Shown one piece after another: positions 1 through 62,744 of a stretch of DNA of 64,000 nucleotides. The notes under the pieces are model-generated. The model searched no databases. It saw only the letters and a list, made by a program, of their open reading frames with translations, and had not been told where the DNA came from. The stretch comes from Channallabes apus (Eukaryota; Chordata; Actinopteri; Siluriformes; Clariidae). Position numbers and translations under genes: made by a program. Numbering within the stretch: position 1 is the first letter of the stretch; every line of letters begins with the position of its first letter. The stretch covers positions 29,888,804 to 29,952,803 of the forward strand of contig CM060114.1 of NCBI GenBank assembly GCA_030522415.1. The letters run 5' to 3'.

Positions 1-540
1 GCACCATTCTGATTAAACTTGTTGTGCATGGAAATCCCAGGAGATCAGGAGTTACAGAAATACTCATGCCAGCACATCTGGCAGTAACAACCATGCCAAG
101 GAGCAGAATAACTGAGATTATATTTTTTTCCCTCATTCTGATAAATGACCTGGGGTTGCTGTCCTTATGACGTGCATGACCGTTACAGGTGTTCCTAAAG
201 TTATTAATTAATTACTAATTACAAATTATACAAATTATTAATGATACAGAATCCCACCAAAAAAAATATTTATGTGGTTGTTTTGCACCCATACATTATC
301 CAGGCTGACTGACACAATACAAAACTTGTTGAAGTTGCTCTCTTCTTGAGTTCTTGGTGTTGAGTCTTCCGATTCCTTTGTCATATAATTCTGTGGTCAT
401 ATATAGAAGGATTTAAAACAATAGCTTACAGCTCATGAAAATAAAAATAAATATCTAAAAATATTAAAATATTTAACTGTGTACTGTATAAATACCATGG
501 TCCTCCGAATCTAGAGAAGAAACACCTGACCGAACAATAC
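1..540. other. Gene-free repeat-like sequence
   Basis: 1-115 resembles a dispersed fish repeat (GAGATCAGGAGTTACAGAAA); 36290-36420 may hold a distant relative. The rest is AT-rich with no frame or RNA gene that I can support. Confidence 0.4.
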
Positions 541-625
541 AGACGAGCTGATGGCTGCTATCAAAGCAACCTGGTCTTCAGTAACGCCTCAGCAGTACCA
601 CAGGCTGATTGCCTCCATGTCATGT
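541..625 (+). mobile_element. Tc1 transposase 3'-end fragment
   Basis: The translation AAIKATWSSVTPQQYHRLIA is the C-terminal segment of a Tc1-type transposase. It abuts the mariner relic on its right. Confidence 0.65.
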
Positions 626-1395
626 CCATCTGTCAACAAGTTTTCATAATCCTTCATTAATACAGTAAATGTTTTAGTTTGAGCTGTGAGCCATAAATGC
701 ACCGCTGTCTTCACTTCTTCTTCAGAAGTGAATCTTTGTCTTTGTAGGACTGCTTTTAGGGACAAAACAGGTGAAAGTCTGATGGAGCAAGATCAAGACT
801 ATAGGGAGGATGTGTAAAAAATGACAGAGTTTAACCTTTTAGCAAACTCAGCATGACTACGGAACAGCATACAGCCACAACTTTCCTGTCTCTCACAGCA
901 CGTACTCTGGCCTTAAAGGAGCAACCCCACATTAATAAAAGAAACCATAACCTATCATCATAACAGGATGCTTTAGCACTTCAAAATGCGGTTTTTGCAG
1001 AGTGTCAACAGAAGTGTGCGGATGTCCTCTGCACTCCTCTGTATTTAATCCGAAGTTTAGGCTTCTGGAAACTTTTTGTCTGATAATTTTCCCATACTGG
1101 CCCTTGAGAATCCCAGAAAACTGTAAGCATTAATGGATTCTTCAGCCGATGGTTGATCTTTGAACTTTTTCTCGGTCAGTGATTGAGGATCTTTCTGTTC
1201 CATACTCTGACATTTACTCTCCAGCTCACTGTGATGAATCAATGTCTCGTCACCAGTAATGATTCTTTGTAAGAAACTTTCACCTCCCATAGCATTTCGG
1301 GATAATTGATACAGGATATTTACAGGATAAAGCATTAGGCATACAGTACTTCTTCATGACATGAAGTGCAGATGCTATTTCAGTTACAGAGTTTG
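615..1395 (-). pseudogene. mariner-like transposase relic
   Basis: On the minus strand, pieces of a mariner transposase run in order: FLQRIITGDETLIHHSELES (the first catalytic aspartate motif), a KFKDQPSA/FLGFSRASMGKL stretch, YSLDLAPSDFHLFCP (the third catalytic position motif, SPDLAPSDFHLF type), and the C-terminal KTxxLTDG region. Several stops and frameshifts interrupt it. Confidence 0.75.
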
Positions 1396-1725
1396 GAATC
1401 TGTTCTGAACATAAAGTTGAATTTGGCAGCATTTGTTTTCTGGCCTTAAGTCAAAAATTTTATTACGGAAGTCCTTAAGTTGAAGAGCTTAACAAAAAAA
1501 ACTAACATTACGTGATGCATGTCACTTCTGTGTGTGTGTGTGGCAAGGGAAAGGATGTGGTCCTATTTTAATCTTTAAAGTCAAGAAGTTCCTCTTTAAG
1601 GGTGACTAGGCTTTTTGTCGTTGATTGTCATTTCGAATGTTTTCCCCATGTCCCTGAAATTTGCTAAATTGATAGGAAAATCTGGGTGTAAATGTGCATG
1701 TGAAATTGAGAATGATTTTTTTATA

Positions 1726-1860
1726 TACAGTATAGTAATACAATACAGTATAGTAGTACAATACAGTATAGTAATATAACACAGTATAGTAATATAACAC
1801 AGTGTAGTAATATAATACAGTGTAGTAATATAATACAGTGTAGTAATAGTATTGCAACAC
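1726..1860. repeat. Short tandem array of AGTATAGTAATACAATAC-like units
   Basis: About seven 18-19-bp units alternating ACAGTATAGTA and ACAGTGTAGTA. It explains the tyrosine/threonine-repeat open frames here. Confidence 0.9.
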
Positions 1861-1913
1861 ACAGGTGGTGATGGAGCCGGTACTTGGGCCTGCTCATAAT
1901 GTGTACAGGTCAC

Positions 1914-2185
1914 GAGGGGCCTGGAGCCTATCCCGCGAGGTGGGATACACCCTTAACGGGGTGCCAATCCATCACAGTGCACACACACACAAACACTCAC
2001 TTCACACACAACGAGAAGTTTGGGAATGCTCATTAGCCTAATTTTCATGTCTTTAGACTGTTGAAGGAAACCAGACCACATGGAGGGAACCCACCAAGCA
2101 CGGGGAGAACTTCTTGCACACAGACCCGAGGCGGGAATCAAACCTTCGACCCAGGAGTTGCAAGGCCTCAGTGCTAACCACTAAT
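1914..2185 (-). mobile_element. DANA-like SINE copy
   Basis: The modules GGGGCCTGGAGCCTATCCCG, GTGCCAATCCATCACAGTGC and the head (minus strand GTGGTTAGCACTGAGGCC) are recognisable, with moderate decay. Confidence 0.75.
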
Positions 2186-2189
2186 CCAA

Positions 2190-4350: not shown

Positions 4351-4395
<45 letters not shown>

Positions 4396-4712: not shown

Positions 4713-4738
4713 CATCTGACATCTCAAGACAATATGTC

Positions 4739-5115
4739 TGTCAGTGAACTAACCCGGAGTTGACCAGAAGACTTAGCTTTAGCGGTTAGCCCGTGTAGCG
4801 TGGATGGTAAACCCAAACGCGGAAGCAAGCGAGAAGGCAGGATAACCACGCGATTTAATCTAAGGACTCTCACAACAACGGAGCAAGGGAGAAACACAAA
4901 TTTAACCCGCGTCCTATAAACACACACTCTAGACAGAAAGATAACGCAAGATAGTGAGTACTCACGATTTGGAGGCGATACGAGCTGATCCGACATGGGC
5001 AAAACTCAAGACTGAGTGAGGTAGGACGCCATCTTGTCTCCTTTTATGCTTCCTGTTTTTGCGAGCTGGCTTCTTCCGGGTCCTTGTGCCGGTCGCAACG
5101 CGAGTGTGTGTGACA
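4739..5115 (-). repeat. 3' LTR of the chromovirus element
   Basis: 377 bp. Relative to the 5' LTR it lacks one T in the segment that forms the self-priming complement (around 4989), so the two LTRs are not equivalent there. A purine-rich tract with a run of six G, read on the minus strand, lies immediately to the right (about 5116-5129) and fits a polypurine tract for plus-strand priming. Confidence 0.94.
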
Positions 5116-5552
5116 GTACCCCCCTGTCCAGGACCGACTCCCGACGGTCCCGGGGTGGAGGATACCCGACGACGGTAATCTCTAATAAGGTCGGGGTCGA
5201 GAACGAACCGTGTCGGAACCCACGACCGCTCCTCGGGGCCGTAGCCTTCCCAGTCGACCAGGTATTGGGTGCCTCGACCCCTCGGTCGCGAGTCAAGGAT
5301 CCGGCGAACGGTGTAGGCAGGGGCACCGTCTATGATTCGGGGGGGAGGAGCAGGGGGGGAGGGTAGAATCATTGGAGAGGTGGTGAAGGGTTTGAGTTGT
5401 GAGGTGTGGAATACCGGGTGAATTTGGAGCGCCGCAGGCAGTGACAGGGTTGATCCGGAGGTGAATGCGATAGGGGCCGATGAACCTGGGTGACAACTTC
5501 TTGGACTCTGTGTGGAGATGGAGGTTTTTAGTTGAAAGCCAAACTTTGTCAC
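4962..5552 (-). pseudogene. pol C-terminus: integrase tail and chromodomain
   Basis: After a further frame change near 5440 this frame reads [18 protein letters not shown] and then a chromodomain ([38 protein letters not shown]). The chromodomain defines chromoviruses and in that group helps to target integration to chromatin marks. The true protein would end shortly after RDYRRR; the rest of the frame runs into the 3' LTR. Confidence 0.88.
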
Positions 5553-5557
5553 CTATG

Positions 5558-6763
5558 TTATACAACCGTCCCGGAGGGTGTTGACGGCGATGCTGGGTGG
5601 TGTAACGGGCGTTGGCTCGATGGATGGCTCGGTTGGCTTGATCCCAGAGCCGCTGACACCTGCGGACCAAATGGTACATCAACCTCCGGTTCTTGGTGTT
5701 CGAACATCAGAGGTTGGAAACCGTGACATACCTCGAATGGGCTTAGATTGGTGGCTGAGGAGACGTGGAGGTTGTGGGATAGTTCGGCCCATAGGAGGTA
5801 GCGAGCCCAGGAGCGCTGGCGATCGGCAACGAAACATCTCAGGTAGCGCTCCAGTTGTTGGTTGGCCCGCTCCGTCTGACCATTAGTTTGTGGGTGATAG
5901 TCAGAAGACAGACTACAGGTGGAATGGATCAGATGGCAGAAGGCCTTCCAGAACCTGGCAGTGAACTGGGGCCCCCTGTCCGAGACGATGTCTTTAGGGA
6001 ACCCATGCAGATGGACTACGTGTTCTAACATCAGCTCCGCAGTGTCTTTGGCTGACGGGAGTCCAGCGAGGGCCACCAGGTGTACGGCTTTGGAGAAACG
6101 GTCGATGATGGTCAAGATGGTGGTTTTCCCTTCGGAATCCGGCAGGCCCGTGATGAAATCAACAGCAATGTGCGACCAGGGCCGACGGGGAACGGGAAGA
6201 GGCTGGAGTTCCCCCGAAGGTGTTTGGTTAATAGTCTTGGCCCGGGCGCACACTGGGCATGCCTGGACGAACTCGTTGATGTCCCAGTCCATGGATGGCC
6301 ACCAGAAGGCATGTCGGATGAACCGGATGGAGCGTTGACTGCCTGGATGTCCGGCGATGGGCGAGGTGTGGCCCCACTGTATGACCTCCTCTCTCATAGT
6401 GGGAGGCACATAGAGACGTCCAGGCGGCACACCTGCCGGTTCGTTCTCCGTTGCCTGCGCCTGGCGGACCCTCGTCTCCAGGTCCCAATGGAGGGGTGCG
6501 ACGATCTTGGATGGTGGGAGAACAGGCGCGGGTTCCGTCCGGGGGACGTCTTCCTCATGTTGTCGGGAGAGAACGTCTGCCTTGGTATTTTTGGACCCCG
6601 GACGGTAGGACAGGTGGAAATTGTAGTGCTCGAAGAGCAGCGCCCACCGCGCCTGTCTCGGATTGAGCTGTTTGATATTACGAATGGTAATGAGATTCTG
6701 ATGGTCGGTCCAGATGATGAATGGATCCCTGGCGCCCTGGAGCCAGTGACGCCATTCCTCCAA
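5558..6763 (-). pseudogene. pol: RNase H end and integrase core
   Basis: This is the same frame as the RT piece, separated from it by TAG at 7097-7099 and a second TAG at 6767-6769 inside RNase H. It encodes the RNase H tail (RPGSKNTKADVLSRQH), the integrase zinc-binding HHCC region (HTSPIAGHPG...CPVCARAK), and the D-D-E core with VDFITGLP, SDRGPQF and NGQTERANQQLE. It loses frame near 5700; the continuation is in the frame of 5293-5682. Confidence 0.9.
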
Positions 6764-7096
6764 AGCCTACTTTATGGCCAGCAGCTCGCGGGCCCCTACC
6801 CCGTATCGCTGCTGAGTGGTGTCAAATTTTTTGGAGAAGAAACTGCAAGGGTGCAGTTTCTGATCTGGGCCTCGGTGGGAGAGAACAGCCCCAGCGCCCA
6901 CGTCTGAGGCGTCCACCTCCACAACGAATGGTTTACTGGCGTCTGGATGGAGAAGAATAGGGGCGGTGGTGAAGCGGTGACATAGTTGATGGAAAGCGGA
7001 GACGGCTGCGGGGTCGAGGCTGACTGGATGAGATGATGGGCGGGTCAGAGCGGTTAGGGGTGCTGCAACCGTACTGTAGTCCCGGATAAAGCGACG

Positions 7097-8497
7097 CTAA
7101 AAATTCACAAACCCGAGAAACCGTTGAAGCTGTTTAAGAGTCTTGGGTAGGGGCCAATGACGCACAACCTCTAGCTTCTGCAGGTCCATGGCCACACCCT
7201 GGGACGAGATGACAAAACCCAGGAACGTGGTGGAGCGCTCGTGAAAAGCACACTTTTCCAACTTACAGTACAGTTGGTGCAATCTCTTTAAGACCGCTCT
7301 GACATGTTGGACGTGTTCCTCCGGAGTACGGGAGTAGATGAGGATGTCATCGAGGTATGCAAATGCCCACCGCCCTAGCATATCCCGGAGAACGTCATTG
7401 ATAAAATGTTGGAAGGCGGCTGGGGCATTGCAGAGGCCAAACGGGATGACCAGACTCTCGTAGTGCCCCGTGGGTGTGATGAATGCCGTCTTCCACTCAT
7501 CGCCCTCTCTGATGCGCACCAAGTTGTAGGCGCTCCGAAGGTCCAACTTTGTGAAAATGGTGGCACCCGAGAGAGCGTCCAGGGCAGAGTTGGTAAGAGG
7601 CAGCGGGTGACGATTTTTGATGGTTATGTTATTGAGCCCCCGATAATCGACACACGGGCGAAGTTCGCCCCCTTTCTTTTTGACAAAGAAAAACCCCGCG
7701 GCAGCAGGCGATGAGGACGGCCTGATGGTGCCCTGGCGGAGAGCGTTGGTCACATAGTCCTCCATAGCCTGCGTCTCGGTGGCGGTGAGGGAGTAGAGAT
7801 GGCCGCGGGGAGGCACGGAGCCGGGCTGAAGGTCAATCGCCAGATCGTAAGGGCGATGTGGTGGAAGGTGGGTGGCAAGTCTCTTACAGAACACTTCCGC
7901 CAGGTCCCGGAAGATGGTAGGAATGGCGTCGGTGTCGACATCGGGGGCCTCGGACTCCCTAGAACACGTCCCAGCCGGTGCTTGGAAGCAGAGTTCGGAG
8001 CAGGTCGGCCCCCACTGGAGGATCCGGTTTTGGGTCCAGGATATGAGTGGGTCGTGTTGAAGTAACCAGGGGTGTCCGAGGATGATGGGTGGTGACAAGA
8101 TGGTGGTGAGGTGAAACTGGATCTGCTCCTGGTGTTCATTTATGGTCAGGGTGACAGGTTGGGTTTGTGCGGTGACGGGGCTGGATGATAGGGGGCGACC
8201 ATCGACTGAGATGATCCGAACCGGCTGGGATAACGCCTCAAGTTTCATCCCTAGTTGCTTGGCGTAATTAGAGTCAATGAAATTTCTGCGGCACCGGAAT
8301 CGATGAACGCAGTACTTCTGACTCGTTTGTGGCCAAACTGGAGGTGTACCTGTACCGCGAGACGGGAGATGTTGGTGGTAACGGGAGAGATCTGAAGGTG
8401 GCCCGGTGAACTTCCCTCGTGTCTCACCGGGCCTGGGTGTTTCCCGGACGGAGGGGGCAGATGGCTCGATGGTGGGCATCTGACCCACAGTAGGCAC
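7097..8497 (-). pseudogene. pol: aspartic protease remnant and reverse transcriptase
   Basis: The 466-codon frame covers the end of the protease ([25 protein letters not shown]) and most of the reverse transcriptase, with [32 protein letters not shown] and the catalytic YLDDILIYS box. The protease active-site codons (DSGA) are present but lie in another frame just upstream of a 1-nt deletion near 8282-8293. The frame ends at TAG 7097-7099, directly before RRFIRDY, where related elements keep an aromatic residue. The same frame continues beyond this stop. Confidence 0.9.
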
Positions 8498-8972
8498 AGA
8501 GTCTCTCTCGAAATCTTCGTGCCCGTTCTGCAGCGGACAAGGAGGCGCGGCCTAGTTGCATGGGTTCCCCGGCTCCCGTGTCAACCACGGCGGGTGGTGG
8601 AGATCCGACAGAGTCAGTGACGGCGGGTCGAGCTTCAGGTAGAGGAAGGTGAGGGAAAGGAGCTGAAGGATGTGGCGGGACATAGGAGAGAACAGGTGAG
8701 GCAGGTGGCAGGGTGCGAGGGGCTGGCTTGGGACGAGACAGCAGACGTTGGTCGATCCGAAGGGCCAGCTGGATGAGGCCCTCGAGCGTAGCCGGTAGCT
8801 CCCGCCCCGCGAGTTCGTCTTTTAGGCGGGAAGCCAGCCCTTCGTAATAGGCTGTCCGGAGAGCGGAGTCTCCCCAGGTGGTCTGGACGGCGAGCATGCG
8901 AAACTCCGCGGTGTAGCGGCTCACGGACAAACCTCCCTGCCGTAGGTGATAAAGTCTCGTGTCGGTCTCCAC
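8424..8972 (-). pseudogene. gag, C-terminal part with CCHC zinc knuckle
   Basis: 182 open codons resume the capsid region (LSVSRYTAEFRMLAVQ) and end with the nucleocapsid knuckle [14 protein letters not shown], a perfect C-x2-C-x4-H-x4-C. This segment is in a different frame from both upstream gag pieces, so gag carries at least two frameshifts plus one stop. Confidence 0.88.
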
Positions 8973-9141
8973 CTCTCCGGGTGCTCAAAGGTGAGTCTTA
9001 GCTGGTGGGTAAACTCATTGTAAGAGTGAGCGGTGTCTGAATCTGATTTGATGACCGCCGTGGCCCACTCAGCTGCCTGCCCGGTTAGCAACGAAACGAG
9101 AAGTGCAATTTAATTAAACTCAAACACCAAATCAAGCGATG

Positions 9142-9456
9142 TTAAAAACACATCACACTTTCCATCCGTGCCATTCCACTTATCCGGTAATGAAATGAAT
9201 ACTTCAGAAGGAGTGGGGGGGTTGGTGCGGCCATACCGACGGAGGCCTGGCTAGCCGCGTCATCGACAGTTGCACGGAGCTCCGCGTTCTCCCGCTTCAG
9301 CTCCGCGACCTCGCGGTGCAAGGCCGCGGTGTCCCGGACGCTTTGGCGTAGAGTAGCGATCTCCGCGCTAAGCTTATCGATTAACACAGCATGCCGGTCC
9401 ACCACGTCGCAAAGGCGTGCATGATCCGCTGGGTTTACCGCGCGAGACTCAGTCAT
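9142..9456 (-). pseudogene. gag, N-terminal part (broken)
   Basis: The frame opens MTESRAVNPADHARLCDVVD directly after the 5' LTR. It contains a leucine/glutamate heptad-type coiled coil (EIATLRQ...EVAELKRENAELRATV) typical of sushi-like Gag. It runs out of frame near 9160-9190. The following frame carries the Gag matrix/capsid region but is stopped by TAA at 9110-9112. Confidence 0.85.
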
Positions 9457-9457
9457 T
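9447..9457 (-). other. Putative self-priming site (PBS) of the chromovirus
   Basis: The minus strand here reads AATGACTGAGT, one base inside the 5' LTR boundary. It is the exact complement of ACTCAGTCATT at 9738-9728 in the LTR, where the transcript is predicted to begin. No tRNA-like PBS starting TGG is present. The Tf1/sushi group is known to prime by folding the 5' end of its own RNA onto such a site. The PBS overlaps the gag ATG at 9456-9454. Confidence 0.65.
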
Positions 9458-9458
9458 C

Positions 9459-9836
9459 TGTCAGTGAACTAACCCGGAGTTGACCAGAAGACTTAGCTTT
9501 AGCGGTTAGCCCGTGTAGCGTGGATGGTAAACCCAAACGCGGAAGCAAGCGAGAAGGCAGGATAACCACGTGATTTAATCTAAGGACTCTCACAACAACG
9601 GAGCAAGGGAAAAACACAAATTTAACCCGCGTCCTATAAACACACACTCTAGACAGAAAGATAACCCAAGATAGTGAGTACTCACGATTTGGAGGCGATA
9701 CGAGCTGATCCGACATGGGCAAAACTCAATGACTGAGTGAGGTAGGACACCATCTTGTCTCCTTTTATGCTTCCTGTTTTTGCGAGCTGGCTACTTCCGG
9801 GTCCTTGTGCCGGTCGTGACGCGAGTGTGTGTGACA
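9459..9836 (-). repeat. 5' LTR of the chromovirus element
   Basis: 378 bp, with TG/CA termini seen on either strand. It is nearly identical to the copy at 4739-5115. It contains the TATA-like box and predicted transcript start (reading leftwards) and is followed directly by the putative self-priming site and gag start. Confidence 0.95.
9761..9768 (-). promoter_or_regulatory. TATA-like box of the 5' LTR
   Basis: The minus strand reads ATAAAAGG. Its first base is 30 nt upstream of position 9738, the first base of the 11-nt ACTCAGTCATT segment. That is canonical spacing for a transcript that starts at or next to that segment. Confidence 0.6.
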
Positions 9837-9942: not shown

Positions 9943-10083
9943 CTGTGAAAAAGTATTTGACAAAACTCCTCCACAGTGATGTGAAAGGTTCATTGCCAGT
10001 TATTACAAACGCTTGATTGCAGTTGTTACCATCAAGGGTGGCACAACTTACCCCAAGGGCAAATAGTTTTTCTCAGTACTGTA
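9943..10083 (+). mobile_element. Very short Tc1 deletion derivative
   Basis: The ends CAGTGCTGTGAAAAAGTATT and AATAGTTTTTCTCAGTACTG are imperfect inverted repeats related to the intact Tc1 element. In between is only the 3' end of a related transposase gene (ACAAACGCTTGATTGCAGTT). It is about 140 bp in total. Confidence 0.65.
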
Positions 10084-12328: not shown

Positions 12329-12329
<1 letters not shown>

Positions 12330-12334: not shown

Positions 12335-12879
12335 TACCGTTCAAAAGTTTAGGGTCACTTGCAAATTTCTTTGTTTTTGTTTAGTGATTTATTTTCTTCA
12401 TTCTACAACAATACTGTGGATTTCAAAACTATAGAATAACACATATGGAATTAGGTAATTACGTAACAACAAGAAAAGCACCAGTTAGTTGTTATTTTAA
12501 GACACAGAGGTCAGCCTTTCTGTAATAGTTCTTGCAAGAACAGTATTGTCAAGTGCATTTGCAAAATCCATCAAGCACCATAATGAAACTGTCTCTCATG
12601 AAGGCCGTCCCAGGAGGGCGAGACCAAAACCTACCTCTGCTGCAGACGAGAAGTTCATTTAGAGTTATCAGCCTGAAAAATCACCAATTAACAGCACCTC
12701 AGATTAGAGGCGTTATGAAGTCTTTACAGAGCAGAAGTAGCAGAAACATCTCAATATCAACTGTTCAAAGGAGATTCATGCATTTTTGGACGCCTTCAGC
12801 TTTACAATGTAGAAAGAAATAAAAATCAGAAACCATCATGGAGTTAGAAAGTGACCCCAAACTTTTGAACGGTAGTGTG
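12330..12879 (+). mobile_element. Tc1-like relic, deletion derivative
   Basis: The inverted ends CACTACCGTTCAAAAGTTT and AAACTTTTGAACGGTAGTG enclose about 550 bp. The interior keeps a recognisable slice of a Tc1 transposase (HQLTAPQIRGVMKSLQSRSS, NISISTVQRR) without the catalytic part. The left end abuts a long AT microsatellite, so the left TA duplication cannot be judged. Confidence 0.8.
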
Positions 12880-15345: not shown

Positions 15346-15741
15346 CGACATCAAATGAGTAACTGGGTTGAAAAATAGGATTAATTCATTCTCACAACCA
15401 AAAGCACGTATTATTATTTGATCATGAATTAAGGGGAAAAAACATGATTGTGGATTGTGGTTTTTTTCCCTCTTCTTGTTATCAGCAGAAAATTTGGATT
15501 GGTGTGAATGAACACAACTAGAGTACTATTTTTAATAATCTACTGTATAATGCATGTCTAATGGAAAAGAATGTTTCAAACACAAGATTCACACTTTAAT
15601 TAAAAAATTATAAGTAACTTCTTTAATATAGTCAGAATCACAGTGTGTAATAATAATACTAATACTAATACTAATAATAACAAGAGTCTCTTTCAGGACG
15701 ACTGGATGTAAGACAAGAGAGTTCACACTGGATGATATGAA

Positions 15742-18394: not shown

Positions 18395-18890
18395 AGATTC
18401 GATTCCTGCCTCTGTGTGCAGGGAGTTTGCATGTTCTCCCTTTGCTTGGTGGGTTTTCCCTGGGTACTCCGGTTTCCTTCCACAGTTGAAAGACATGCAA
18501 ATTAGACTAACTGGCATTCCCAAATTGCCCATGGGGTGTGAATAAGTGTGTGAGTGTGTGTATGCTTTGCCTTGCGATGGATGAGTAATTCAACTTCTAT
18601 AACGCTTTATACTGTACAGTATACAGGGGCATGGGGGACAGGAGACTTACGGCACGAGGTGAGGTACACCCTGGAAGGACTGCCAATCCATCACAGGACA
18701 CACACACATACAGTATACACAGACACACGGAGACACACACACACTATAGGCAATTTCTGAATGCCAATTAATCTACTCTGCATGTCTTTGGATTATGGGA
18801 GGATACTGAAGCACCCAGGAGAAGCTCACCAAGCATTTGAACCCTACATTGGAGGTGCGAGGCCCCTGTGCTAACCACTATACTACCATA
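18395..18890. mobile_element. Two DANA-like SINE pieces in opposite orientation
   Basis: 18395-18560 is on the plus strand (GGAGTTTGCATGTTCTCCCT, GTACTCCGGTTTCCTTCCAC). 18620-18890 is on the minus strand (GTACACCCTGGA to CTAACCACTATACTACC). Just to the left, at 18128-18180, is a TCTTTCGGCTGCTCCCGGCA segment that matches the 3' module of DANA elements. Confidence 0.65.
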
Positions 18891-35654: not shown

Positions 35655-38600
35655 CGCTCTCTCTCATTCTCTCTCTCTCTTTCGCTCTCGTTCTCTCTCT
35701 CTCTCTTTCTTTGGCTGTTTGCACCAAATTGGATTTTCCCTAATGTCTAATGTCACTGGAGCTCAGAGCAGTGCACCAGCCACCCTGTTGTTGTCATCCA
35801 ATTAGATTCGATTTTCCCAACCTGAAATGCTCTTAAGAGCTAATTGAGGTCTTTGCGGTGTAGCCTAGTCCATAACATGGCTCTCAGTCACGGCCGGTAA
35901 TTATACAGCTCCATAGTGTTGCCCCCTTTTTATCAATACCCGACTCCACAATTAGATAATCGTGGGTCAAGTTCTGATAAACTGATCTGCCCTTATCAAG
36001 AAGCTACTCTTCTTTTTCCATCCTGACCTCTGCAATTCACTTCTATCCTGTCTAGTCTTCAGATTCTTGTTCTTGCCCGACAGGAGTGGACCCCAATCCG
36101 TTCTTCTGCTCTTGTTCTGACATGATTTTCTGCTCAGCACGGTTGCAAAGAGTGTTTATTTGTGTCACCAGTGTTGATCCGGTCTGCTCGTTCTCTTCAG
36201 TTGTCTCGCATCGACATGTAGATATCTCTTTACAGTATGGCAGCTCAGTTTTTTACACCATTTTGTGTAAACACTCATAAAACTCTCAGGGGATCAGGAG
36301 TTTATTGAATGCTCAGAAAAGCCTGGCACCCTGGCACTAAGATCTCCCTACATAATCGCAGAGATGTTTCCACCAGTCATGCGTTTTGCACAGAGCATCG
36401 CACAAGCAGCATGGTTGATTGTGAAAAACAGCAAAATCAGATATAGTTATGGTTTCCGTACACTTCCGCTTTCTAACTGGTCTAAAACCCGACATTGATC
36501 AAAAGAGCATGGTACTGAAACATGTAGGTTACCCTTGTTGTCTGTGGTTGTATTTTCAATACATAATGCTGAGAGTTAAATCTAATTAGTTCTTAAACAG
36601 AATGTACTGTAATGTTGAGATTTGGACATATGGTGCTTTTTATATCTATCTTTCTTATCTGAACAAGCTAGTGATGGTTTCCGCAACCCACATGCCTTTT
36701 GATAACGATCAGCCAAACTATTTCTTTTAACGAATAGAATACAATTTAGAAGTAACCGTGAAACCAGTGTATACATGACATTATGTACACCAGTGTATAC
36801 ATGACATTATGTACATACTGTACATAATGTCATGTATACACTGGTTTCACGGTTACTTCTAAATTGTATTGTATGTATGTATTTTTGAACGCGTATGTAA
36901 TATGAACATCATATACAGTAATGTGCCATTATTTACAGTATTTAATAAAAAGGAACATGTGGCTACGAACCCCCCACTGCTTCCACAGGATTTAAGTGGG
37001 TGTGTTGGAGCTACAGTAGGCAGAGGTGTCAAGTAACGAAGTACAAATACTTCGTTACCTTACTTAAGTAGAAATTTTGGGTATCTATACTTTACTGGAG
37101 TAATAATTTTTCAGCCGACTTTTTACTTCTACTCCTTACATTTTTAAGCAATTATCTGTACTTTCTACTCCTTACTTTTTAAAAACAGCCTCGTTACTCT
37201 ATTTTTATGATCAGAACGCGCACAACGCCCCCCCCCCCCCCCCCGTCACATGATCAGAACGCGCACAACGCCCCCCCCCTCGTCACATGATCAGAACGCG
37301 CACAACGCCAGACCCCCCCCCCCCCCCTTTGCATGATCAGAAAGCGAGACCTTAATGTTCTTGTCGCCCCTCACGGTACTTTTACTTTTATACTTTAAGT
37401 AGTTTTGAAACCAGTACTTTTAAACTTTTACTTAAGTAAAACGCTTGGGTTGATACTTCAACTTCTAAAGAAGTATATTTGAACCCTAATATCTATACTT
37501 CTACTCAAGTAATGAATGTGAATACTTTTGACACCACTGACAGTAGGTGCTGTTACTCTTCAGCCCATGATTTAATTAATCATTTCAAGATGTGCAAACC
37601 TTTCTGTATATAAAACAGGTGTGTGTTAACACAATGCCAAGAGGAAAACACATAATCAAGGATCTTAGGTAAGCACTTGTTGTCCCACACCAATCTGGAA
37701 AGGGTTATACAGTAAAACCATTTCCAACCAATTTGTAGTTCAAGTAGGAAGCATTCAAGGCAGTTGCCAGTTTTCACCGGACTGGACGTCCCAGCACATT
37801 CACCCCAACGTCAGAACATGTCAGACTCTACAGGCCTCATTAAGTATGTTAAATGAGACCATTTCCATGTTTGGCGAAAACTACACAGCATTTCAACAGA
37901 AACACTTCATACTCATCATCAAGCACTAAAATCTTTGTCTGCAGGAAAATAGTTGAAGTTACATGAAAGAAGTTGAAGAACGTTAAAGCTTTTGGCTGAG
38001 GGTAAAATATAATACCTAATAATGATTCGATTACTTGTCACATGTACCTTACAGCACAGTAAAATGAGCTTTTTGCTTATTCCAGTTAGGAAGCTGGAGG
38101 CAGAGTGCAGGATCAGTAACCAGTAACCCACAGCCTCAACTAATTGAGCCATCACTGCCCTTATATAGGCACTAAATATGAGAGTTAAGCAAATATTCAA
38201 AATTTTTATTATTTTATAGAGTGGTAAAAACTAGGGCTGCACGATATATCGACAAATTATCATTATCGCGATAATGGTATATGCAATATCTGTATCGCAA
38301 AGAGTTTCGATAAATGAAATTTAATTTATGTGCCAAGCATTTGTGTGTCCAAATTTGACCAATCAGATGGCCCTTACTATCTTTATACCCGAAATCCGAA
38401 GTCAGAATATCTGCTGAGGGTTTTAAAGTCATTCATATTGTTTCGTAGTCTAAATATTTGCAACTTCCTTGATGTATATTTTCTTTTTAGCCTGAATTAG
38501 ATTTAATTACATCAGACGAATACATATTACCTGTTTATTTTAATATGATCATTACATATAGAAATGATTTTTTTTAAATAGCCAATAATAATAATAAAAA

Positions 38601-43703: not shown

Positions 43704-46700
43704 ATAATTATACTGATTCGGATGAGTCTTGAATGTGGGCAGTAAATGCTAATTTTGTGCTTCCTGTCAGTGAGCACTGTCAGCACTTGAGCTTGACCTT
43801 CAACATGTAGCAAAACAAACCAGAGTGAAGACTTTATGTTGTATTGTGTGGGAAAGAAACACACATTTTAATACCTAAATATCTATTAGTGTTTTCTTGA
43901 ACTGAAACATCACATACAGTATGTAATGAACTACAGACTCATTTTGTGTTAGCAAACAAAATGTAGTAATAATCTGACAGGATAAGGAAGTCAGATTGAC
44001 ATTCGCTAAAAATGTTATTATCTTATGTTGTATTAGCATAAAAAAAAGAAAGGGAGTGCTATTTAGTCAAACTATCACTTTTAAACTTCTATAGAGAGAG
44101 TGTCCTGCTAATGGCTAAATTTTGCTAACGACTGTTTTTAGCTCATGATACAAATGTGGCAAAAAAAAAAAAATCATAAATTTTTTACCCCTAAATATAT
44201 ATTAGTATTTTCTTGAGCTGAAGCATTATGTTTGTAATGAACTACATGCTCATGTCATGTTAGCAAACAAAGCGTAGCATTTTAGCTAAAAGACCTGACT
44301 ATGTTAGCGACTTTATACTATTAGCCATAATCTGACTGGAAAAAAAAGCGTTCAGATTGATATTAGCTAAAATTTTATCATCTTATTATCGTGGATTAGC
44401 ATTAAAAGGAAAAAGGTATTTAACCAACTGTCACTTTTAATTCATCTGATTCTAGGAGACTTCTATGTGTGGCTAAATCATGCTGAAGAATGTTTTAGCT
44501 AGCTAAGCAACTCCTTGGTACAAACATGACTTAGCTATCTAGTGTGTGTTGCTAATTTCTTGGTATACATTTTAGCCAAGAAAAAAAAAATCTACATACA
44601 ATGAGATCAATAAGTATTTGATCACCCTGTGATTTTGCAAGTTCTCTTATGGCGCTTTTCCACTGCATAGTACGGCACGAAACGGTTCAGTTCTACTCAC
44701 TTTTGGGGGGTTTACCACTGGGAACAGTACCTGGTACCTGGTCCTTTTTTTAGTACCACCTCAGCCGAGGTTCCAAGCGCGCCGAACCGTTACCAAAACG
44801 TGACGTGTAAACTCTGCTGGTCACTGATTAGCCGGAGAAAATCGTCATTACTGCGTCACTGAACTTGCGACACGAGACACAACAGAACCGCTATATTTAG
44901 AACAGCCAGAGAAGGATCGCACGCACCTTTTTGTATTAACCGTCGGCCTCTTTTGAAACAAACTCCTTCGTCTCGCTGTTAAAAACATCCACATGCCGAG
45001 AATGAAGAACACCATGCCGTCGATATGCTCCATTGTTGTGTTTGTTTGTGGCGCATTTACGATGACGTCACGGCAGTAACGGCGCCGCAACTAAACGACA
45101 CGTGAGTAATCCCGCCCATGCTAAAGCGTTACTACACTGCAGTGGAAGCGCAAACCGAGCCAAACTGCGCCGAATCGAAGTGAGTTGAACTGAACCGTGT
45201 CATGCCGTACTATGCAGTGGAAAAGAGGCATTACTTAGAAATCATGGAGGGGTCTATAATTTTCAGCATACAGTAGGTGCATTTCCACTGTGAGAGACAG
45301 AATCTAAAAAGAAAAATCCGGAAATCACATTGTATGATTTTTTAAAAATGTATTTGTGAATTACTGTGTCAAATAAGTATTTGTTCACTTGCTTATCAAC
45401 CAGATTTCTGACCGTCAAAGACCTGTTATTTTGCTTTTAAGTAGCCCAGCTACACTCTGCTCATGATTTAATCTAAAGGCTAGATACGTATAAAGGTTTA
45501 CTTTACTTTAATTTACTTTGCTTAAATATGCAAATAAGAAATGCATATATTTAATTTAAATTCTAAATCTGTACTGTAATTTTAGTCCTGTGATTGGAAA
45601 TTTGTTTACAGTAATGTTTAACTTGTATTTCATAAGGTTTTGCCAGTGGTGGTACACAGAAACAGGGGTCATTATTAACTATTAAAGAAAATTATGATGA
45701 TCTGTCACGGTGTGCGCCCAAATCTACTATCACTACTCGCTTACTCTGTAGGCTCACTAGACAGGCGGCACCCCCTTCTGCATTATGATCTCATTATAAA
45801 AGCAAGGCGCGGAGTTTAGTCCGAGGTCCGGGAAGTATGTGACGCGGTGATGAATTGGAGAGTGACTTTAAACAAGGAAACTAGAATTCCGCCCTTTGAT
45901 CCTCGCGGTGAGGATAGCGCGAGAAAAAGCTGCGCGAGCTCCCTCGGCACCTTTGCTCCTGCACCGTGCCTGCCTTTATTTTATTTTATCCTAAGATTTA
46001 ATTTTATTTGAATTCTACATTTGTACTGTAATTTTAGTACTGTGATTATGAATTTGTTTAACTACAATGTTTTATTTTCTTTTATCCGCTGCTACGGATG
46101 AATCCTGCAGAGAATGAACTAAGTCCTAAGGCGTCAGTCTACAGTATAGTTATATAGAGCCACTCAGCGGTAAAAGCCAGCAAACGCACAAATCCAAATG
46201 CTGCGGCCGAGTACTGCAAATTGTAGACCCCTCCATGATTTCTAAGTAAGAGAACTTGCAAAATCACAGGGTGATCAAATACTTGTTGACCTCACTGCAT
46301 GTAAAAGAAAGGTTTTGTCTTTACATTTGTCAAAATTCGCTGCTTCGATTATATATTTTTGTTTCATACATTAAAGGACCTGAAACCAGTCTCAGGAAAA
46401 TTTCTGTCTGTCTGTACAGTATGTCTGTATATCTACAGTGGTGTGAAAAACTATTTGCCCCCCTCCTGATTTCTTATTCTTTTGCATGTTAGTCACACAA
46501 AATGTTTCTGATCATCAAACACATTTAACTATTAGTCAAAGATAACACAAGTAAACACAAAATGCAGTTTTTAAATGAGGGGTTTTATTATTTAGGGAGA
46601 AAAAAAATCCAAACCTACATGGCCCTGTGTGAAAAAGTAATTGCCCCCTGAACCTAATAACTGGTTGGGCCACCCTTAGCAGCAATAACTGCAATCAAGC

Positions 46701-49700
46701 GTTTGCGATAACTTGCAACGAGTCTTTTACAGCGCTCAGGTCAGGACTTTGACTAGGCCACTCCAAAGTCTTCATTTTGTTTTTCTTCAGCCATTCAGAG
46801 GTGGATTTGCTGGTGTGTTTTGGGTCATTGTCCTGCTGCAGCACCCAAGATCGCTTCAGCTTGAGTTGACGAACAGATGGCCGGACATTCTCCATCAGGA
46901 TTTTTTGGTAGACAGTAGAATTCATGGTTCCATCTATCACAGCAAGCCTTCCAGGTCCTGAAGCAGCAAAACAACCCCAGACCATCACACTACCACCACC
47001 ATATTTTACTGTTGGTATGATGTTCTTTTTCTGAAATGCTGTGTTACTTTTGCGCCAGATGTAACGGGACACACACATTCCAAAAAGTTCAACTTTTGTC
47101 TCGTAGGTCCAGAAGGTATTTTCCCAAAAGTCTTGGCAATCATTGAGATGTTTTTTAGCAAAATTGAGACGAGCCTTAATGTTCTTTTTGCTTAAAAGTG
47201 GTTTGCGCCTTGGAAATCTGCCATGCAGGCCGTTTTTGCCCAGTCTCTTTCTTATGGTGGAGTCGTGAACACTGACCTTAATTGAGGCAAGTGAGGCCTG
47301 CAGTTCTTTAGATGTTGTCCTGGGGTCTTTTGTGGCCTCTCGGATGAGTTGTCTCTGCGCTCTTGGGGTAATTTTGGTCGGCTGGCCACTCCTGGGAAGG
47401 TTCACCACTGTTCCATGTTTTTGCCATTTGTGGATAATGGCTCTCACTGTGGTTCGCTGGAGTCCCAAAGCTTTAGAAATGGCTTTATAACCTTTACCAG
47501 ACTGATAGATCTCAATTACTTTTCTTCTCATTTGTTCCTGAATTTCTTTGGATCTTGGCATGATGTGTAGCTTTTGAGGTGCTTTTGGTCTACTTCTCTG
47601 TGTCAGGTAGCTCCTATTTAAGTGATTTCTTGATTGAAACAGGTGTGGCAGTAATCAGGCCTGGGGGTGACTACAGAAATTGAATTCAGGTGTGATAAAC
47701 CACAGTTAAGTTATTTTATAACAAGGGGGGCAAATACTTTTTCACACAGGGCCATGTAGATTTGGAGTTTTTTTTCTCCCTTAATAACGTAAACCTTCAT
47801 TTAAAAACTGCATTTTGTGTTCAATTATGTTATCTTTGACTAATAGTTAACGGTTTTTGATGAGCAGAAACATTTAAGTGTGACAAACATGCAAAAGAAT
47901 AAGAAATCAGGAAGGGAGCAAATAGTTTTTCACACCACTGTATATGTCTGTCCAGCCAATGTTATCACTGCATCATGCAAAAAATCTCCACCATATATTA
48001 AATCAAAATATTGAGTAAAAGGGACTTTATGAGCAGGTTTGTGCCAGATTACATCAGAGCAGCATCGCTGCAGGTCTCACCACAGTCGTACAAATGGGAA
48101 TAAATACAATAAAGCCTCCATGGTCCGTAGTTGGACTATAGAGAAGTTCCTAGATGGGTGGATGGATTGCATTAAAGCTGATTAGCTTGTTTTTATTTTT
48201 AACCTTTTAACTATTTCTACAATAGTTTACTTCTACAAAATGACATTATTTTACAAACTCTTTTCACATCAACAACAGGTACTAACGCTAATATAACGTG
48301 TAATATAATATAATATGAAATCATATAATATAACATATTCTTTAATATATTTTATATATACAGTATTCTTTATATATTCTTTAAGCTTTAAAATGTAAAA
48401 AACAGTGAAATTGTCCTTATTTAAGCACACGCTGGAAAACTTGAGTGCATGATAATAAAAATTAAGCACACAAAACACGAACACAAAACGGAATGTCTGC
48501 AAAGAAATACTTCTTTACAGATGTGGTTTATGCCAGCGTGACATTACACAACATAGTGTAATTATTATTACAACATGACGACATTATTACAACATGGGAG
48601 TGCATACTGTACATTGGCAAAATATTAGCTGCCAATTTTACGCTATTGGGACTGTTATTACGATTATAAAGCAGTTTTACAGGATGTGCAAATGAGGACA
48701 CTTAATAGATAATAACTAATCAGCCAGATCACTGAATCAGTACATTTAGTCCAATATCTTGATTTTCTGCATCGGGAAGCTGCATCAGCAAATCTGCTGT
48801 ATAAACCCACACACATGCACCAACCATAAAAGAAAAAAATGGTAACCTTAGTGGTAAGGTGAAAGTGACTCCCTTTTCTTCTTGCTACAGTACTGTTCTT
48901 CTTGGGACCCATGGTGCTATTTCTTCACTAAATCTTGCACGGAATGCAAAAATCCCACAAAAATATGTAAACATGCTTCGCTTGGCTTTTCAATGACAAA
49001 CAAGTTGGAAGCGGCTCCTGAATGTACAAACGCAACTTAGCCGCCATTCGGATCGGTTTGGTTGCTTGTAGTGTATGCCAAGGCAAATTTCTTGCAAAAT
49101 TCATATTATAATGTATATACACTTCAGGAAATAAAAAAGGTGATGAATATTACTGTATATTAATATAATATGAATAATATTATAATATATAACATACAGC
49201 AATAAATTTAGCATTAAAATATTAATACAGGGTTTTCTTTTCCTGAAGTGTGTTTACATTTTTGACTGAGTCTGTATATAGTTAACTTCTAATCAGAGGA
49301 GCCCAGAGGAGAACCACACAGGCATGAGAAGATGTGAAGATTCATACATCTCTTCATAGATAGAAACCTGGGTTCAGGATCAAACCAGGGACCTGGAGCT
49401 GTTCGTGTGTGTGTGTGTGGTGTGTGGTGTGTGGTGTGGTGTGTGTGTTAGTTATTAGTATGAATTTTAAAACAGTCACCTGGAGGGGTGAAGGAAGTTA
49501 AGTGGTAGGTTTTACAGCATCGTGGGTGGATTGTGTGTGCTGCTAAGATCTGCTGTGTGACCTCTGGTGTGCTCACCTCCCCTGACCTTTCCAGCCTCTG
49601 AGGCTGCTCTTTCACTTACATGACTTTCACTTTCAGAAGTTATTCCTTTTAAAAAGAGAAGTAATCAAAAATAATAATATAAGCCAAAAAATAATAATTT

Positions 49701-52660: not shown

Positions 52661-52697
<37 letters not shown>

Positions 52698-56211: not shown

Positions 56212-56285
<74 letters not shown>

Positions 56286-59200
56286 GCTTGGCGTAAGCGT
56301 AAGTATCCACCCCTTGCTTCCTTTGTACTGTCACAACTTTTTTTTTTTAAATTATGACACAAAAGTTAATTAAAAAAGTATTCACCCCCTTTATTTATCA
56401 CTTCAGAACCAGCTTTGGCTCCGTCTCCAACCTTCTGGGACACGCCACTGTCGGCTCTGAGACTTTTAACCCTGAAGTAGCCAGGTTAGACTCGATGGCG
56501 CTTGATTAGTGAGATTCTTTTGTCATAGAGGAAGTCATAACTAAAATAACATTTTTCACTTTATGCTAGTGTTACAAATTCATGTAATGTTATTAGCTAA
56601 CAATAGCTACGAGCAAAGTGAAGAAATTTAAGATAATGAATATGGCTAAAAATGATGATGTTATAAAATCTCTTTTGTGTTTTCTGAAATTAATAGTTGG
56701 CTTTCCTATGTTACTGACAATCTTTGATGAACACATTAATGAAACAAAGTTTCTGAGAGATATTGTAGTTGGCGTTATGTTATTATTTGAGCCAATCAAA
56801 GCAAGTGTTAACAAGTTGCTCGATTTTCTATGACATTGGAAACCACGCTGACTAGTAACTACTACTAATACTGCTTCTATTACTACTACCAATATTACTA
56901 CTTCTATTACTGCTTCATTTACTTCTACTGCTCCTACTATCATAACTACTAATATTACAATTATTACTCGTACATCTCCTACTATTAGTACTACTTTAAC
57001 GATCACTACTATTACTAGTGCTACTATACTATACTATACTATACTGTCTAATTTACTGTAAATCAAATGTCTTCTACGAATCCTGCCCTGTATTTGGCTC
57101 CATACGTTATATTAGTCAGCTGTTCTTAATAATCACCTCCCTACTGACTCTTGATAGAAGGAATTCAATGGGCAGAGCCACATGGGTGAACGTTTTCTTA
57201 AATAACAGACAAATAACATTTTAAGCTTTGCTAGATAAGAGATTTAATGTTTTAGTTAGAAAATTCCTAAAACTAAACTCGTACAGTACCAGTCAAAAGT
57301 TTGGACACAAATTTGGATTTATTTTTGTACATTCCAGAGCAATACTGGATTGTTTCTAAACTACAAACACATATGGCATTATGTAATTAAGTAACAACAG
57401 AAACAAATAACAAACAGCACCTCAGTTTAGAGGCGCTATGAAGGCTTTACGTAGCAGTTACATCTCAATATCATCAACTGTTCCAAAGGAGATTGTTGCA
57501 GACGCCTTCAGTATTGTTTTACCGTGTAGAAAGAAAGAAAAATCAGGAAGGACCATAGAGTTACAGTATACGGCGTGTCCTTTACAGGACTGGTTTTGCT
57601 ATCTCAATGGTTTTCATGATGTTCCAAACTGTTTCGGACACGACGTTACTACTGTATGTTCCAACTCCACTTACAGTAACTAATCATGTCACTTCAGCAG
57701 AATAACAGACATGAATATTTACTTCCAACTCCAACATTTTTGAAATCATTCGAATGCAATCTGTATTCATCCTTATTAATAATTTAGGCTATAATGGACA
57801 GATTTTTGTCTCCAGGTTGTAATACTACTAAATGCAGAATGGATACAGAATGGTTACATTTTGCAACTGTACAGAATAAGAAGGTTATAATTAAGGCGGC
57901 ACGATATTAGGAAAATATGCGATATGCGATATTGTTGTTGAAGACTGCGATAACGATATTTCTTGCGATATAACATTTCCTTAGAGAAATGCATTTTTTA
58001 TTATTACCTTTTTTTTATTATTATTTATTTATATGTAATGATGATACTAAAATAAACAGCTAATAAATATTCGTCTGATGTAATTAAATCTAATTCAGGC
58101 TAAAAAGAAACTATATGTCAAGGAAGTTGCAAATATTTAGACTTCAAAACACTATGAATGACTTAAAACCCTCAGCAGATATTCTGATTTCTGGTTTGCT
58201 GTTACTATAAACCTGCCAACACAATATGAATTACTTTCAAACATTACTTTTTGTTTACGTGTAACCATACACTCATTGATTTCATTTATCGCAATTCTTT
58301 GCAATACCGATATTGCGTATACCATTATCGCGATAATGATAATTTTCCGATATATTGTGCAGCCCTAGTTATAATTTAACTTTCCAAAAACTTGAAGGGA
58401 ACACAATAATTAGTATCACAATGTTCTGTTTATTTCGGGATAACAGCACAGTTATAACATCACGGCGAAAACTTTTTTGCCCAGGATTGTGTAGTTTCCT
58501 GTGTAGTTGCCACCGAAGCAGTTCTGCCCAAGGATGAGCCTTGCGTGGCCGTGACCCTCTCACCAGCTCAATGTTAATGATTTATGGTCTTAATGTCATG
58601 GCTGATCCTTGTATACGCACCTGCTTCTAGAGCTGGTGCCTTGAAACAATAAAGAAGGAGAAGCTCAAAATTCTTCAGTATGACCCCGGGTCATCACATA
58701 CAGTATACAGTGAAACCAAAATGAAGGTTCCAACCGAACAACATCCCGAAACACACAAGTTATATAAGCTTATAAGTTCAGCCTTTATTTATCACTGCAC
58801 AGTGAAAGTCTTTATTCTTTACACATCCCAACTTTTTTGTTAGTAGGCTGGGGTCAGAGTATACTGTAGGGTCAGCTATTATAGAGTACCCCTGGAGCAG
58901 ACAGGGTTAACGGCCTTGCTCAAGGGTCCAACAGCAGCAACCTGATGGAGTTAGGACTCAAACCGCCAACCTTCCAATCAGTAACTCACTTAACACACTG
59001 AGTCACCACCAACAACGCTGGGTGTGGAATTCACAAATTGGAGACTCAACCCTGTCGAAAAATTCGAGCAGCAGGTTTAAAAGGAAATCAACACTTAAAA
59101 GGAATCAACATAATTATCTTTATTACACGGGTAATTATGCAATAAGAGTTGGCAAATATCCAGAAAAAGACATTTCCAACGAGCTTGTTGATGTCCGCTA

Positions 59201-60243: not shown

Positions 60244-60290
<47 letters not shown>

Positions 60291-61037
60291 CATGGCCTGA
60301 AGTAAGACGTTGCCTAAGACGCTGAATATCCACCCACGCTTTGCACCTCTACCACTTCCTGCTTCACATGAATAATACATGCCTGTCTCAAAAGACGCTC
60401 GATGTTTCGGAGCTCGAGTCTAAAACTCATCTCGGATTCTTGTCCCGAGGCTCCACGCGCTGGTATTTACGCACGTTTGCACGTACACGATTTCTCCAAA
60501 TCGCACACATCAGAGTTACACCTGAGTACAAAAGCAGGAGAGTGTGTGTGTATGTGTGTGTGAGAGAGAGAAACAGAGAGGAGGGGAGCGAAAGCAGAAA
60601 GAGGGAGAGAGAGAGAGAGTGAGAGACTGCGAGAGATAACAGAAAGCGAAAAAAGGAAATGTGTGGTTGTACTTGAGAGAGAAAGAGAGAGAGAGAGAAG
60701 GAGAGGAAGTTAGTGGTCGGGTCTCTTCAGCCTCTGTGGTGATGTGACTGAAGCTCGGCTCAGGCATGACATCTCCTGATCTCACACCGCGACGTGTCGA
60801 CCTTCCCGCTCTACTGCTCCGACTGTCCTTCTTACCCAACTAGTAGGATGACATAAGAGGAGAGCTGCTCACCTGATTGGCTGAGATCGGTAAGTCGATC
60901 AAACGTAAGCTGGAAGCATAACACGGGATGTTTTACTTACTTCTGGTCAGAGCTGTTCACTGAGGTAAGGACGGATTAACCCCCCGAGTTAGAATTTCAT
61001 ACCTAATTAGCACTGCATTACGACCCCGTTCTCTACC

Positions 61038-61073
<36 letters not shown>

Positions 61074-61360
61074 CACTGAACAGCATGCAATTAATTTTCT
61101 GAACAGAAATATGTTCCTGCTGTAACGGTGAGATTTCCATGTCTCAGATCGCTAATTAATATTGCGCACATACAGTACTGTAGTTTTCGGCTTTTCATCT
61201 CGCTGACTCCGAGAAGCGTTTCTAGTTATTAAAGAAGGCGACTGATAAGCGATCGATATCTGTTATCATATCTTCAAACCAAGTCATGCAGAAATATTTA
61301 TCATCATGACATTATATAACGAATATATAACGAATGTAGTGAAAGTGATGAGGCCATCTC
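60095..61360 (+). other. PTPRR intron 5, 5' portion
   Basis: It contains CA/GT microsatellites and a purine tract (GAGAGA, 60550-60705). I searched it for the next PTPRR exon (ILYRLKER-like) and found none. The short frames are repeat artefacts. Confidence 0.5.
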
Positions 61361-61570
61361 TAGTTCAAGTTCAAGTTCAATTTATTTGGATAGCACATTT
61401 ACAACAGCCGTCAGGCTGACCAAAGTGCTTCACATAAAAACAAACTCATAAAACACACAATAAAACACAAATAGCACACCTAGCGGAATTAAAATGCTAA
61501 TGAAAACAAATAAGTTTTGAGCAAGGACTTAAAAGCGGATAGAGAAGGTGCCAGTCTGATCTCTAGCATC
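61361..61570 (-). mobile_element. LINE 3'-end fragment of a second family
   Basis: It starts with (AGTTCA)n and continues TTTATTTGGATAGCACATTT, then a CAGGCTGACCAAAGTGCTT motif. This arrangement is typical of the 3' end of another fish non-LTR element. It lies in PTPRR intron 5. Confidence 0.55.
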
Positions 61571-62311
61571 AGAACTGTACGAACTCATATGTGTAAAGTA
61601 TTTCGAAACATGTTTAATACGCTTATATCATATCTGTTCATAAACAGTCGAACAAAATGAAATGATCGTTGAAACTCGCATGAAAACTGGCACACAGATA
61701 TTTTAACGTCTGGTTAGGTCGTTCTATTGTAACACAGGTGTTGCTTCATCAGCGTGTCTCAGTGGAAAGTTAGAAGAGTTGAAGATCATTGGGCTCGAGC
61801 TAATGTGGAAGTACTTTACAGAAAGGGGAATTAAAATTCTCAGCTCGCGTTGAGGTTATGAGTTAAAACAGGCTGTTATTCAGGTTGTTATTATTAAGTG
61901 ATTGATTTTCATGATTAGTAACTGAACTAGTTTTTCCCTTAATTTGTAAGTAGTTCATTTATTAGTACATGAGTAACTCTCAGTAGTAGCTGAAATGAAA
62001 CCGGGCAGGTTTGATGAGACAGAAATACATGACGCGCAACAACAACAGCAACACGATTCAACCCCAAAGCTGCTGTTCATGATATCAGAACATCAGCAGT
62101 TCATATAAAAAAAAAACTAAAAACAACACAAAAGCAAAAACTATAGAAATATTAACTTTTTTCTCCAAAAAAAACAGATAGAAAGCTGAGTAATATCTCA
62201 AGAACAACAACGACAACACTACATATATTCAATGGTCATCAGTGCTAGACCAGTAGTCTTTATCTGTCTCTGTGTCATGCTGAATTTACCACCCGGCGCA
62301 TATGAATTTTC
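61571..62311 (+). other. PTPRR intron 5, no feature recognised
   Basis: Unique-looking AT-rich sequence without a coherent frame. Confidence 0.4.
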
Positions 62312-62690
62312 ATTCATCCATTCATTCATTTTCTATACCGCTTAATCCTGTGTTCAGGGTCGCGGGGGACCTGGAGCCTATCCCAGGAGGCTTCGGGCAC
62401 TAGGCGGGGTACACCCTGGACAGGGTGCCAATCCATCGCAGGGCACACACACATACACACACTCACACACCCACCCATTCACACACTACAGGCAATTTAG
62501 GAACGCCAATTAGCCTAATCTGCATGTGGACTGTGGGAGGAAACCGGAGTACCCAGAGGAAACCCACCAAGCACGGGGAGAACATGCAAACTCCATGCAC
62601 ACAGAGACGGGAATCGAGCCTGGCCGGGGAATCGAACCCGGACCCTGGAGGTGCAAGGCGACAGTGCTAACCACTACACCACCGCGCTGA
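62312..62690 (-). mobile_element. DANA-like SINE, full copy
   Basis: All modules are present, from the (ATTC)n tail at 62312 to the tRNA-like head near 62690, with little decay. The head carries an internal duplication (ATCGAGCCTGGC followed by ATCGAACCCGG) also seen in 29970-30343, so these two copies share a subfamily. Confidence 0.82.
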
Positions 62691-62744
62691 TAATATAGGA
62701 TTTATGTTTAAATACAATGCCCTGCTGCCATGTCCACTATAGTG

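Follow-up and report, generated by a model that had tools for sequence, protein, structure and literature searches.

An excess of TAC(A/T)GTA heptamers in a 64-kb window of the Channallabes apus genome as a probable record of Tc1-type transposon excision

Sleeping Beauty excision is described, in passages of PMC7827188, as proceeding through staggered cuts that are repaired mainly by end joining, and the footprints left behind are the same as the overhangs; the consensus footprints, as an excerpt of PMC4378557 gives them, are TACAGTA and TACTGTA. Transposon history is usually read from the copies that stayed, and direct counting of the scars of departed copies, if it can be done, would let an assembly show how often elements hopped, how excisions compare in number with retained insertions and how much mutation (here, 5-bp frame-shifting inserts) cut-and-paste transposition contributes. 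Here we analyse 64,000 nucleotides of Channallabes apus (Siluriformes; GCA_030522415.1, contig CM060114.1, positions 29,888,804 to 29,952,803), hereafter the window, within which all counts and alignments were made. A preliminary description of this DNA had pointed to TAC(A/T)GTA as the footprint word of Sleeping Beauty-type elements, and the published consensus agrees with it. We find, with a probability of roughly 0.9, that Tc1/Sleeping Beauty-type transposons left most of these heptamers (about 94 of the 102 that lie outside arrays) as footprints of their excision. Five results computed here support this: the excess itself, the specificity of the word, a signature in the flanks, a gain of 5 bp at the majority of the sites that could be tested, and a shortage of heptamers in elements taken as younger.

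The window contains 117 TAC(A/T)GTA heptamers by exact count, 67 TACAGTA and 50 TACTGTA. The region that we read as bearing Tc1-type excision footprints on the strength of counts and Markov models, 1..62740 (unstranded), holds 106 of them where base composition predicts 12.0, close to the earlier tally by eye of just over 100 before the ACTAC array against an expectation of about 14; the AT content had been put too high, at about 63%, and is 59.4%, while 29 of the 30 example coordinates given at that time are exact and the remaining one, 20569, misses the heptamers, which lie at 20559 and 20589. Masking of nine arrays (1932 bp) removes 15 of the 117 and keeps 102. Four of those removed lie in or touch other masked arrays, and 11 lie in a degenerate TACAC/ACTAC array at 62762-63382 (123 copies at 64% match), where they probably arise from the array's own composition.

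Outside the arrays, the 102 heptamers compare with 11.2 expected from an order-2 Markov model (z = 27) and 14.1 from an order-3 model (z = 23). Expectations under order-4 and order-5 models are high, at 30 and 66, because such models absorb the heptamer itself, and training with the heptamers masked lowers the expectation to 8.0-8.2. A chance origin of the excess is ruled out by these tests against base composition and Markov models; chance would account for about 8-11 of the 102, and about 94 stand above it. The heptamer is the most enriched 7-mer in the window apart from simple repeats, with only CACACAC, CCCCCCC and ACACACA ranked above it at order 2 and only CACACAC at order 3, and it is spread throughout, at 2 to 13 per 4-kb bin.

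The enrichment is specific to this word. With arrays masked, no other TANNNTA word exceeds 3.3-fold, which answers a point that the preliminary description had raised against itself, that such words might be equally enriched; the next by fold, TAGCCTA, is mildly enriched, at 12 versus 3.7 expected. Footprints of 2 nt are those of the C. elegans Tc1 type, and the corresponding words, TACATA/TATGTA, show no excess in the window (39 versus 41.3 expected), nor are the 4-nt footprint words enriched there, their count being at expectation. TACTA is slightly high (99 versus 77, z = 2.5).

Scars of Tc1 insertions should carry the insertion preference in the bases that flank both TAs on the outside, a feature that the preliminary description had not considered. 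Half-sites were read outward from each TA, giving 200 half-sites from the 100 of 102 heptamers with usable flanks, with 668 half-sites at other TANNNTA words and 8654 at all TAs as controls. Outward from the heptamers, T occurs at a frequency of 0.41, then a purine (R) at 0.69, then T at 0.48, and the combination T-R-T is found at 39/200 half-sites versus 28/668 in the TANNNTA control set (p = 9e-11) and 392/8654 at all TAs. The signal persists when low-complexity flanks and tandem pairs are left out (32/166 versus 27/632, p = 3e-9). T-R-T on both sides is seen at just 3/100 heptamers (1/334 controls) and it is therefore a weak statistical preference; the flanks nonetheless show what is expected of a Tc1-type target. 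The degenerate Sleeping Beauty target is AYATATRT, a string for which our literature search found no paper. The preferred target of zebrafish ZB is ATATATAT, stated in a portion of PMC7913693 to be very similar to those of Sleeping Beauty and Bari, and the T-R-T flank resembles this shared preference of ZB and Sleeping Beauty.

An excision footprint should be 5 bp longer than an empty copy of the same site, a comparison that the preliminary description had also proposed. Each heptamer, as it stands and replaced by TA, was compared with the rest of the window; 103 heptamers entered this test, one more than the 102 above, as the start of 12251 falls immediately ahead of a masked array. A spanning paralogue is present for 15 and absent for the remaining 88. 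Nine of the 15 align better in the empty form, 5 bp shorter, three align better filled and three tie; among 334 other TANNNTA heptamers used as controls, 50 have a paralogue, and these divide into 4 empty, 42 filled and 4 tied (p = 1e-5). The proposed insertions are thus seen at 9/15 heptamers versus 4/50 control words, and neither this comparison nor the one with other TANNNTA words refutes the footprint reading. Seven of the nine empty-favouring sites are judged sound (661, 18615, 27131, 32414, 37708, 43915 and 57562), and with the other two, 10077 and 22012, set aside, the ratio is 7 empty to 3 filled versus 4 to 42 in controls (p = 1e-4). Eleven control sites lie in near-identical young copies, namely the end repeats of a Gypsy-type element and two Tc1 elements, A and B, all described below; these bias the controls toward the filled form, and with them left out as well the contrast holds (7 versus 3, against 4 versus 31; p = 6e-4). 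These p values serve as guides, because sites of one repeat family are not independent. On these alignments, most testable sites carry a 5-bp insertion relative to an empty site.

The individual sites are instructive. At 661..667 (plus strand), TACAGTA reads as a 5-bp CAGTA insertion relative to a diverged paralogue at 54121-53988 (123 versus 109 bits), and at 43915..43921 (plus) TACAGTA likewise gains 5 bp over the paralogue 44182-44277 (93 versus 84 bits). The TACAGTA at 37708..37714 (plus) falls within the N-terminus of an old, degraded Tc1 transposase and is supported by a frame match to homologues: unaltered, the sequence is read as SGKGYTVKPF, and with TA substituted it becomes SGKGYKTISNQF (SGKGYKTIS), in register with the homologues' SGKGYKAISKALGL (SGKGYKAIS). 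Two minus-strand features read TACTGTA on the plus strand: 32414..32420 adjoins an old Tc1 terminal repeat and aligns in its empty form to 47805-47733, and 27131..27137 is spanned by the empty form alone, to 21666-21571, with small gaps elsewhere. The TACAGTA at 57562..57568 (plus) is also spanned by the empty form alone, to 33066-32977. By eye, the TA is retained in the empty copy at four of the seven sound sites (18615, 27131, 37708 and 57562).

Elements compatible with such scars are present in the window. Tc1 element A (33086..34714, plus strand) is bounded as TA-CAGTGGTGTG...CACCACTG-TA, with terminal inverted repeats that span about 217 bp and are 90% identical, and an open reading frame (ORF) at 33469-34491 for a 340-residue transposase that matches a Sleeping Beauty transposase structure (E = 7e-83). 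It begins CAGT, as had been claimed for the resident Tc1, and its excision is predicted to leave TAC(A/T)GTA. Tc1 element B (46434..47946, minus strand) is about 98% identical to A, shares the CAGT ends and has its ORF truncated to 288 residues; both of these largely intact elements are Sleeping Beauty-like. By an informal tally, in which old pieces may be missed, the window holds roughly a dozen recognisable Tc1 pieces, to set beside about 94 footprints.

The heptamers are scarce in elements taken as younger. These are four: Tc1 A and B, because they are 98% identical to each other; a minus-strand retroelement at 4737..9836 with gag, reverse transcriptase and integrase domains, which we take to be Gypsy-type, because its end repeats are 97.9% identical; and an element at 15700-17330 with a separate reverse-transcriptase ORF, presumably LINE-type, whose youth is assumed from that long ORF. 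Together they contain 2 heptamers versus 10.4 expected per TA (p = 0.002), and these two, 7072 and 7264 in the Gypsy-type element, read as ordinary pol codons.

The preliminary description had also drawn attention to tandem-overlapping TACTGTACAGTA forms at 15029, 18610 and 31624; all three are exact, and four more pairs lie at 13175, 24614, 52019 and 61171. A null that draws TAs at random (7 versus a mean of 0.86, reached in none of 5000 draws) is too strict; each footprint creates its own TA, and the fair expectation, with every TA hit equally, is therefore 2.4, over which seven pairs remain an excess (p = 0.011). Such an excess would follow from local hopping or from repeated hits, the latter being what the preliminary description had suggested, with a reservation for 18610 given below. 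Non-overlapping neighbours 6-50 bp apart show no excess (11 versus 8.4, p = 0.21), and gaps of all kinds up to 100 bp do (26 versus 17.1, p = 0.01).

Sleeping Beauty-type excision leaves a 3-nt overhang and is followed by repair of the middle mismatch. If cut geometry and repair here followed that precedent, a Tc1 element would enter at a TA, duplicating it; transposase would later excise the element with 3-nt staggered ends, the terminal CAG or CTG staying behind; and end joining with middle-mismatch repair would yield TA-C(A/T)G-TA, leaving the site 5 bp longer than before the insertion. Scars would in time outnumber recognisable elements, and the sequence would become a tally of hops. We would guess that a scar of 5 bp may be tolerable in places where an insert of 1.6 kb is not, and that each Tc1 copy may have hopped several times. 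Germline timing, fixation and genome-wide extent are matters that we infer. The reading of these words as excision footprints is supported by specificity, flanks and paralogue insertions over the extent of one window, and "genome-scale", as the preliminary description had it, is a prediction extrapolated from that window. We lean towards the view that Tc1 elements across this genome have hopped away and left fixed scars at a density of about one per 660 bp, or roughly 2% of TA sites, which would make the footprint the most enriched 7-mer other than simple repeats. The scars would then outnumber retained elements several-fold and serve as a counter of past transposition that one assembly suffices to read and that decay could in principle date. 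Were the window typical, about 94 scars per 62 kb would extrapolate to over a million in a genome of ~0.7 Gb or more.

Several observations weigh against the excision account or narrow it. End joining also yields deletion footprints, which would not be visible as one word. In the paralogue test, three of the 15 sites prefer the filled form, 28542 weakly so (34.6 bits), three more tie (18610, 18709 and 28226), and the tested sites, lying in repeats, are not fully independent. Two of the nine empty-favouring sites are weak: 22012 abuts simple repeats, and the heptamer at 10077..10083 (minus strand) marks the terminus of an old Tc1 element, TA-CAGTACTGAGAAAAACTATTTGCCC on that strand, rather than an empty footprint. 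By eye, the empty copy is one base off TA at three of the seven sound sites (AA at 661, TT at 43915 and TG at 32414). For the tandem pair TACTGTACAGTA at 18610..18621 (unstranded), the repeat copy 29982-30096 lacks one 5-bp unit, and one of the two heptamers may have arisen by a point change in the underlying repeat, not by a second hit. The paralogous pair 45572/46024 (45572..46030, minus strand) carries the heptamer in both copies, which suggests that this heptamer is older than the duplication or is not a footprint. Decay is weak, with one-base variants of the heptamer in slight excess: 211 versus 177-185 expected under the heptamer-masked model, an excess of 26-34 with an error of 14.5, corresponding to a mean decay d of 0.04-0.055 (error 0.023). 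A model trained with the heptamers included is inflated and showed no such excess. Variants in the core do not carry T-R-T flanks (6/142), and the decay clock is therefore weak.

Other sources of the word account for less of the evidence. Elements of the pogo/Tigger type likewise insert at TA and are able to begin CAGT, and the heptamers could be their footprints; part of PMC4678618 lists termini such as TACAGTA... for Tigger-like miniature inverted-repeat transposable elements (MITEs) of Rhodnius, and an excerpt of PMC9976928 reports footprints of 0-4 bp and a preferred target of AAGTACTT for the pogo element Passer. The heptamer flanks, however, fit the Tc1-type T-R-T and not the Passer half-site CTT, which is not enriched at heptamers (3/200 versus 12/668), and both largely intact elements found are Sleeping Beauty-like, although no search was aimed at pogo elements. 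The flanks thus disfavour a pogo origin, which we regard as quite improbable. It is very improbable, in turn, that the heptamers are the ends of Tc1 elements or MITEs that have not left (TA + CAGTA...), or that they derive from a single repeat family. The heptamer at 10077 is such an end and the one at 57282 directly adjoins a Tc1-like terminus, CCAGTCAAAAGTTTGGACAC, but TACAGTG, TACAGTT and TACAGTC, the words expected from intact element ends, are at or below expectation in the window. The 40-bp flanks of the 117 sites have, by eye, no common consensus, and among the 15 of 103 sites with a spanning paralogue in the window only one pair consists of heptamer-bearing copies of each other; this flank diversity rules out a single repeat family, in keeping with the earlier remark that the spread is hard to explain by one.

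A short functional or mutational motif, such as a protein-binding site or a palindrome-driven replication error, might instead coincide with the footprint word, and the heptamer is indeed almost palindromic and its decay weak. Such a motif predicts neither 5-bp insertions at TA relative to paralogues nor target-site flanks, nor the frame match at 37708, nor scarcity in younger elements, and we consider it scarcely credible. Excision by Tc1/Sleeping Beauty-type transposons remains the reading that we prefer.

Further features of the window concern its repeats. Tc1 A is a nested insertion: the element around it, at 32957-35041, is older, Tc1-like and from a different family (CAGTCAAAAGTTTGGACAC type), to which pieces at 12412-12877 and 57282-57563 are related. 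The transposase at 33469-34491 shares 93-95% identity with proteins named from Xenopus tropicalis, Erpetoichthys, Polypterus, Oryzias and Nothobranchius, and its named relatives among 120 matches listed are fish and amphibian; this identity is above the expectation for vertical descent, and horizontal transfer is a possible source. Four scans of viral and prokaryote collections, three of them with the exact element or transposase, confirmed no relatives of the window DNA. A dispersed repeat family has many copies, mostly at 66-90% identity (1900-2183, 18359-18835, 29972-30337 and 62314-62687). A palindrome that is 89% self-complementary over about 141 bp lies at 36734-36874; it has a 26-bp tandem repeat, and the TACTGTA at 36816 falls close to its centre.

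The mouse genome measures 2.7 Gb. Over 300,000 TACAGTA/TACTGTA sites are given for it in a portion of PMC4378557, about 0.11 per kb at that genome size versus 1.8 per kb here, a rough outside comparison rather than a matched control. The scars resemble Sleeping Beauty footprints in having the same heptamers, TA targets, a CAG/CTG core and a related transposase (sections of PMC4378557 and PMC7827188); unlike those footprints, which are described there from laboratory or somatic events, the word stands here in reference-type sequence. Zebrafish ZB is likewise Tc1-type with an AT-palindrome target, and its footprints, of 0-3 bp according to part of PMC7913693, were observed in transfected cells and not as a standing genomic record. 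In the channel catfish genome, Tc1/mariner makes up 8.8%, and "transposon footprints" in the available text of PMC5953449 means Tc1 sequence that was retained; neither "excision" nor "target site" occurs in that text. Among the titles and abstracts of open-licence papers found, none reports a standing record of such scars in a fish genome. A parallel in approach is rice, where DNA-transposon excision polymorphisms were deduced from genome sequence; in the portion of PMC4423477 that reports them, 8 of 94 excisions across all superfamilies were perfect, and Mariner insertions and excisions stood close to 2:1. Unlike in rice, as that portion presents it, one clean footprint word dominates here and seems to exceed the retained copies, a difference that could be biological or method-related.

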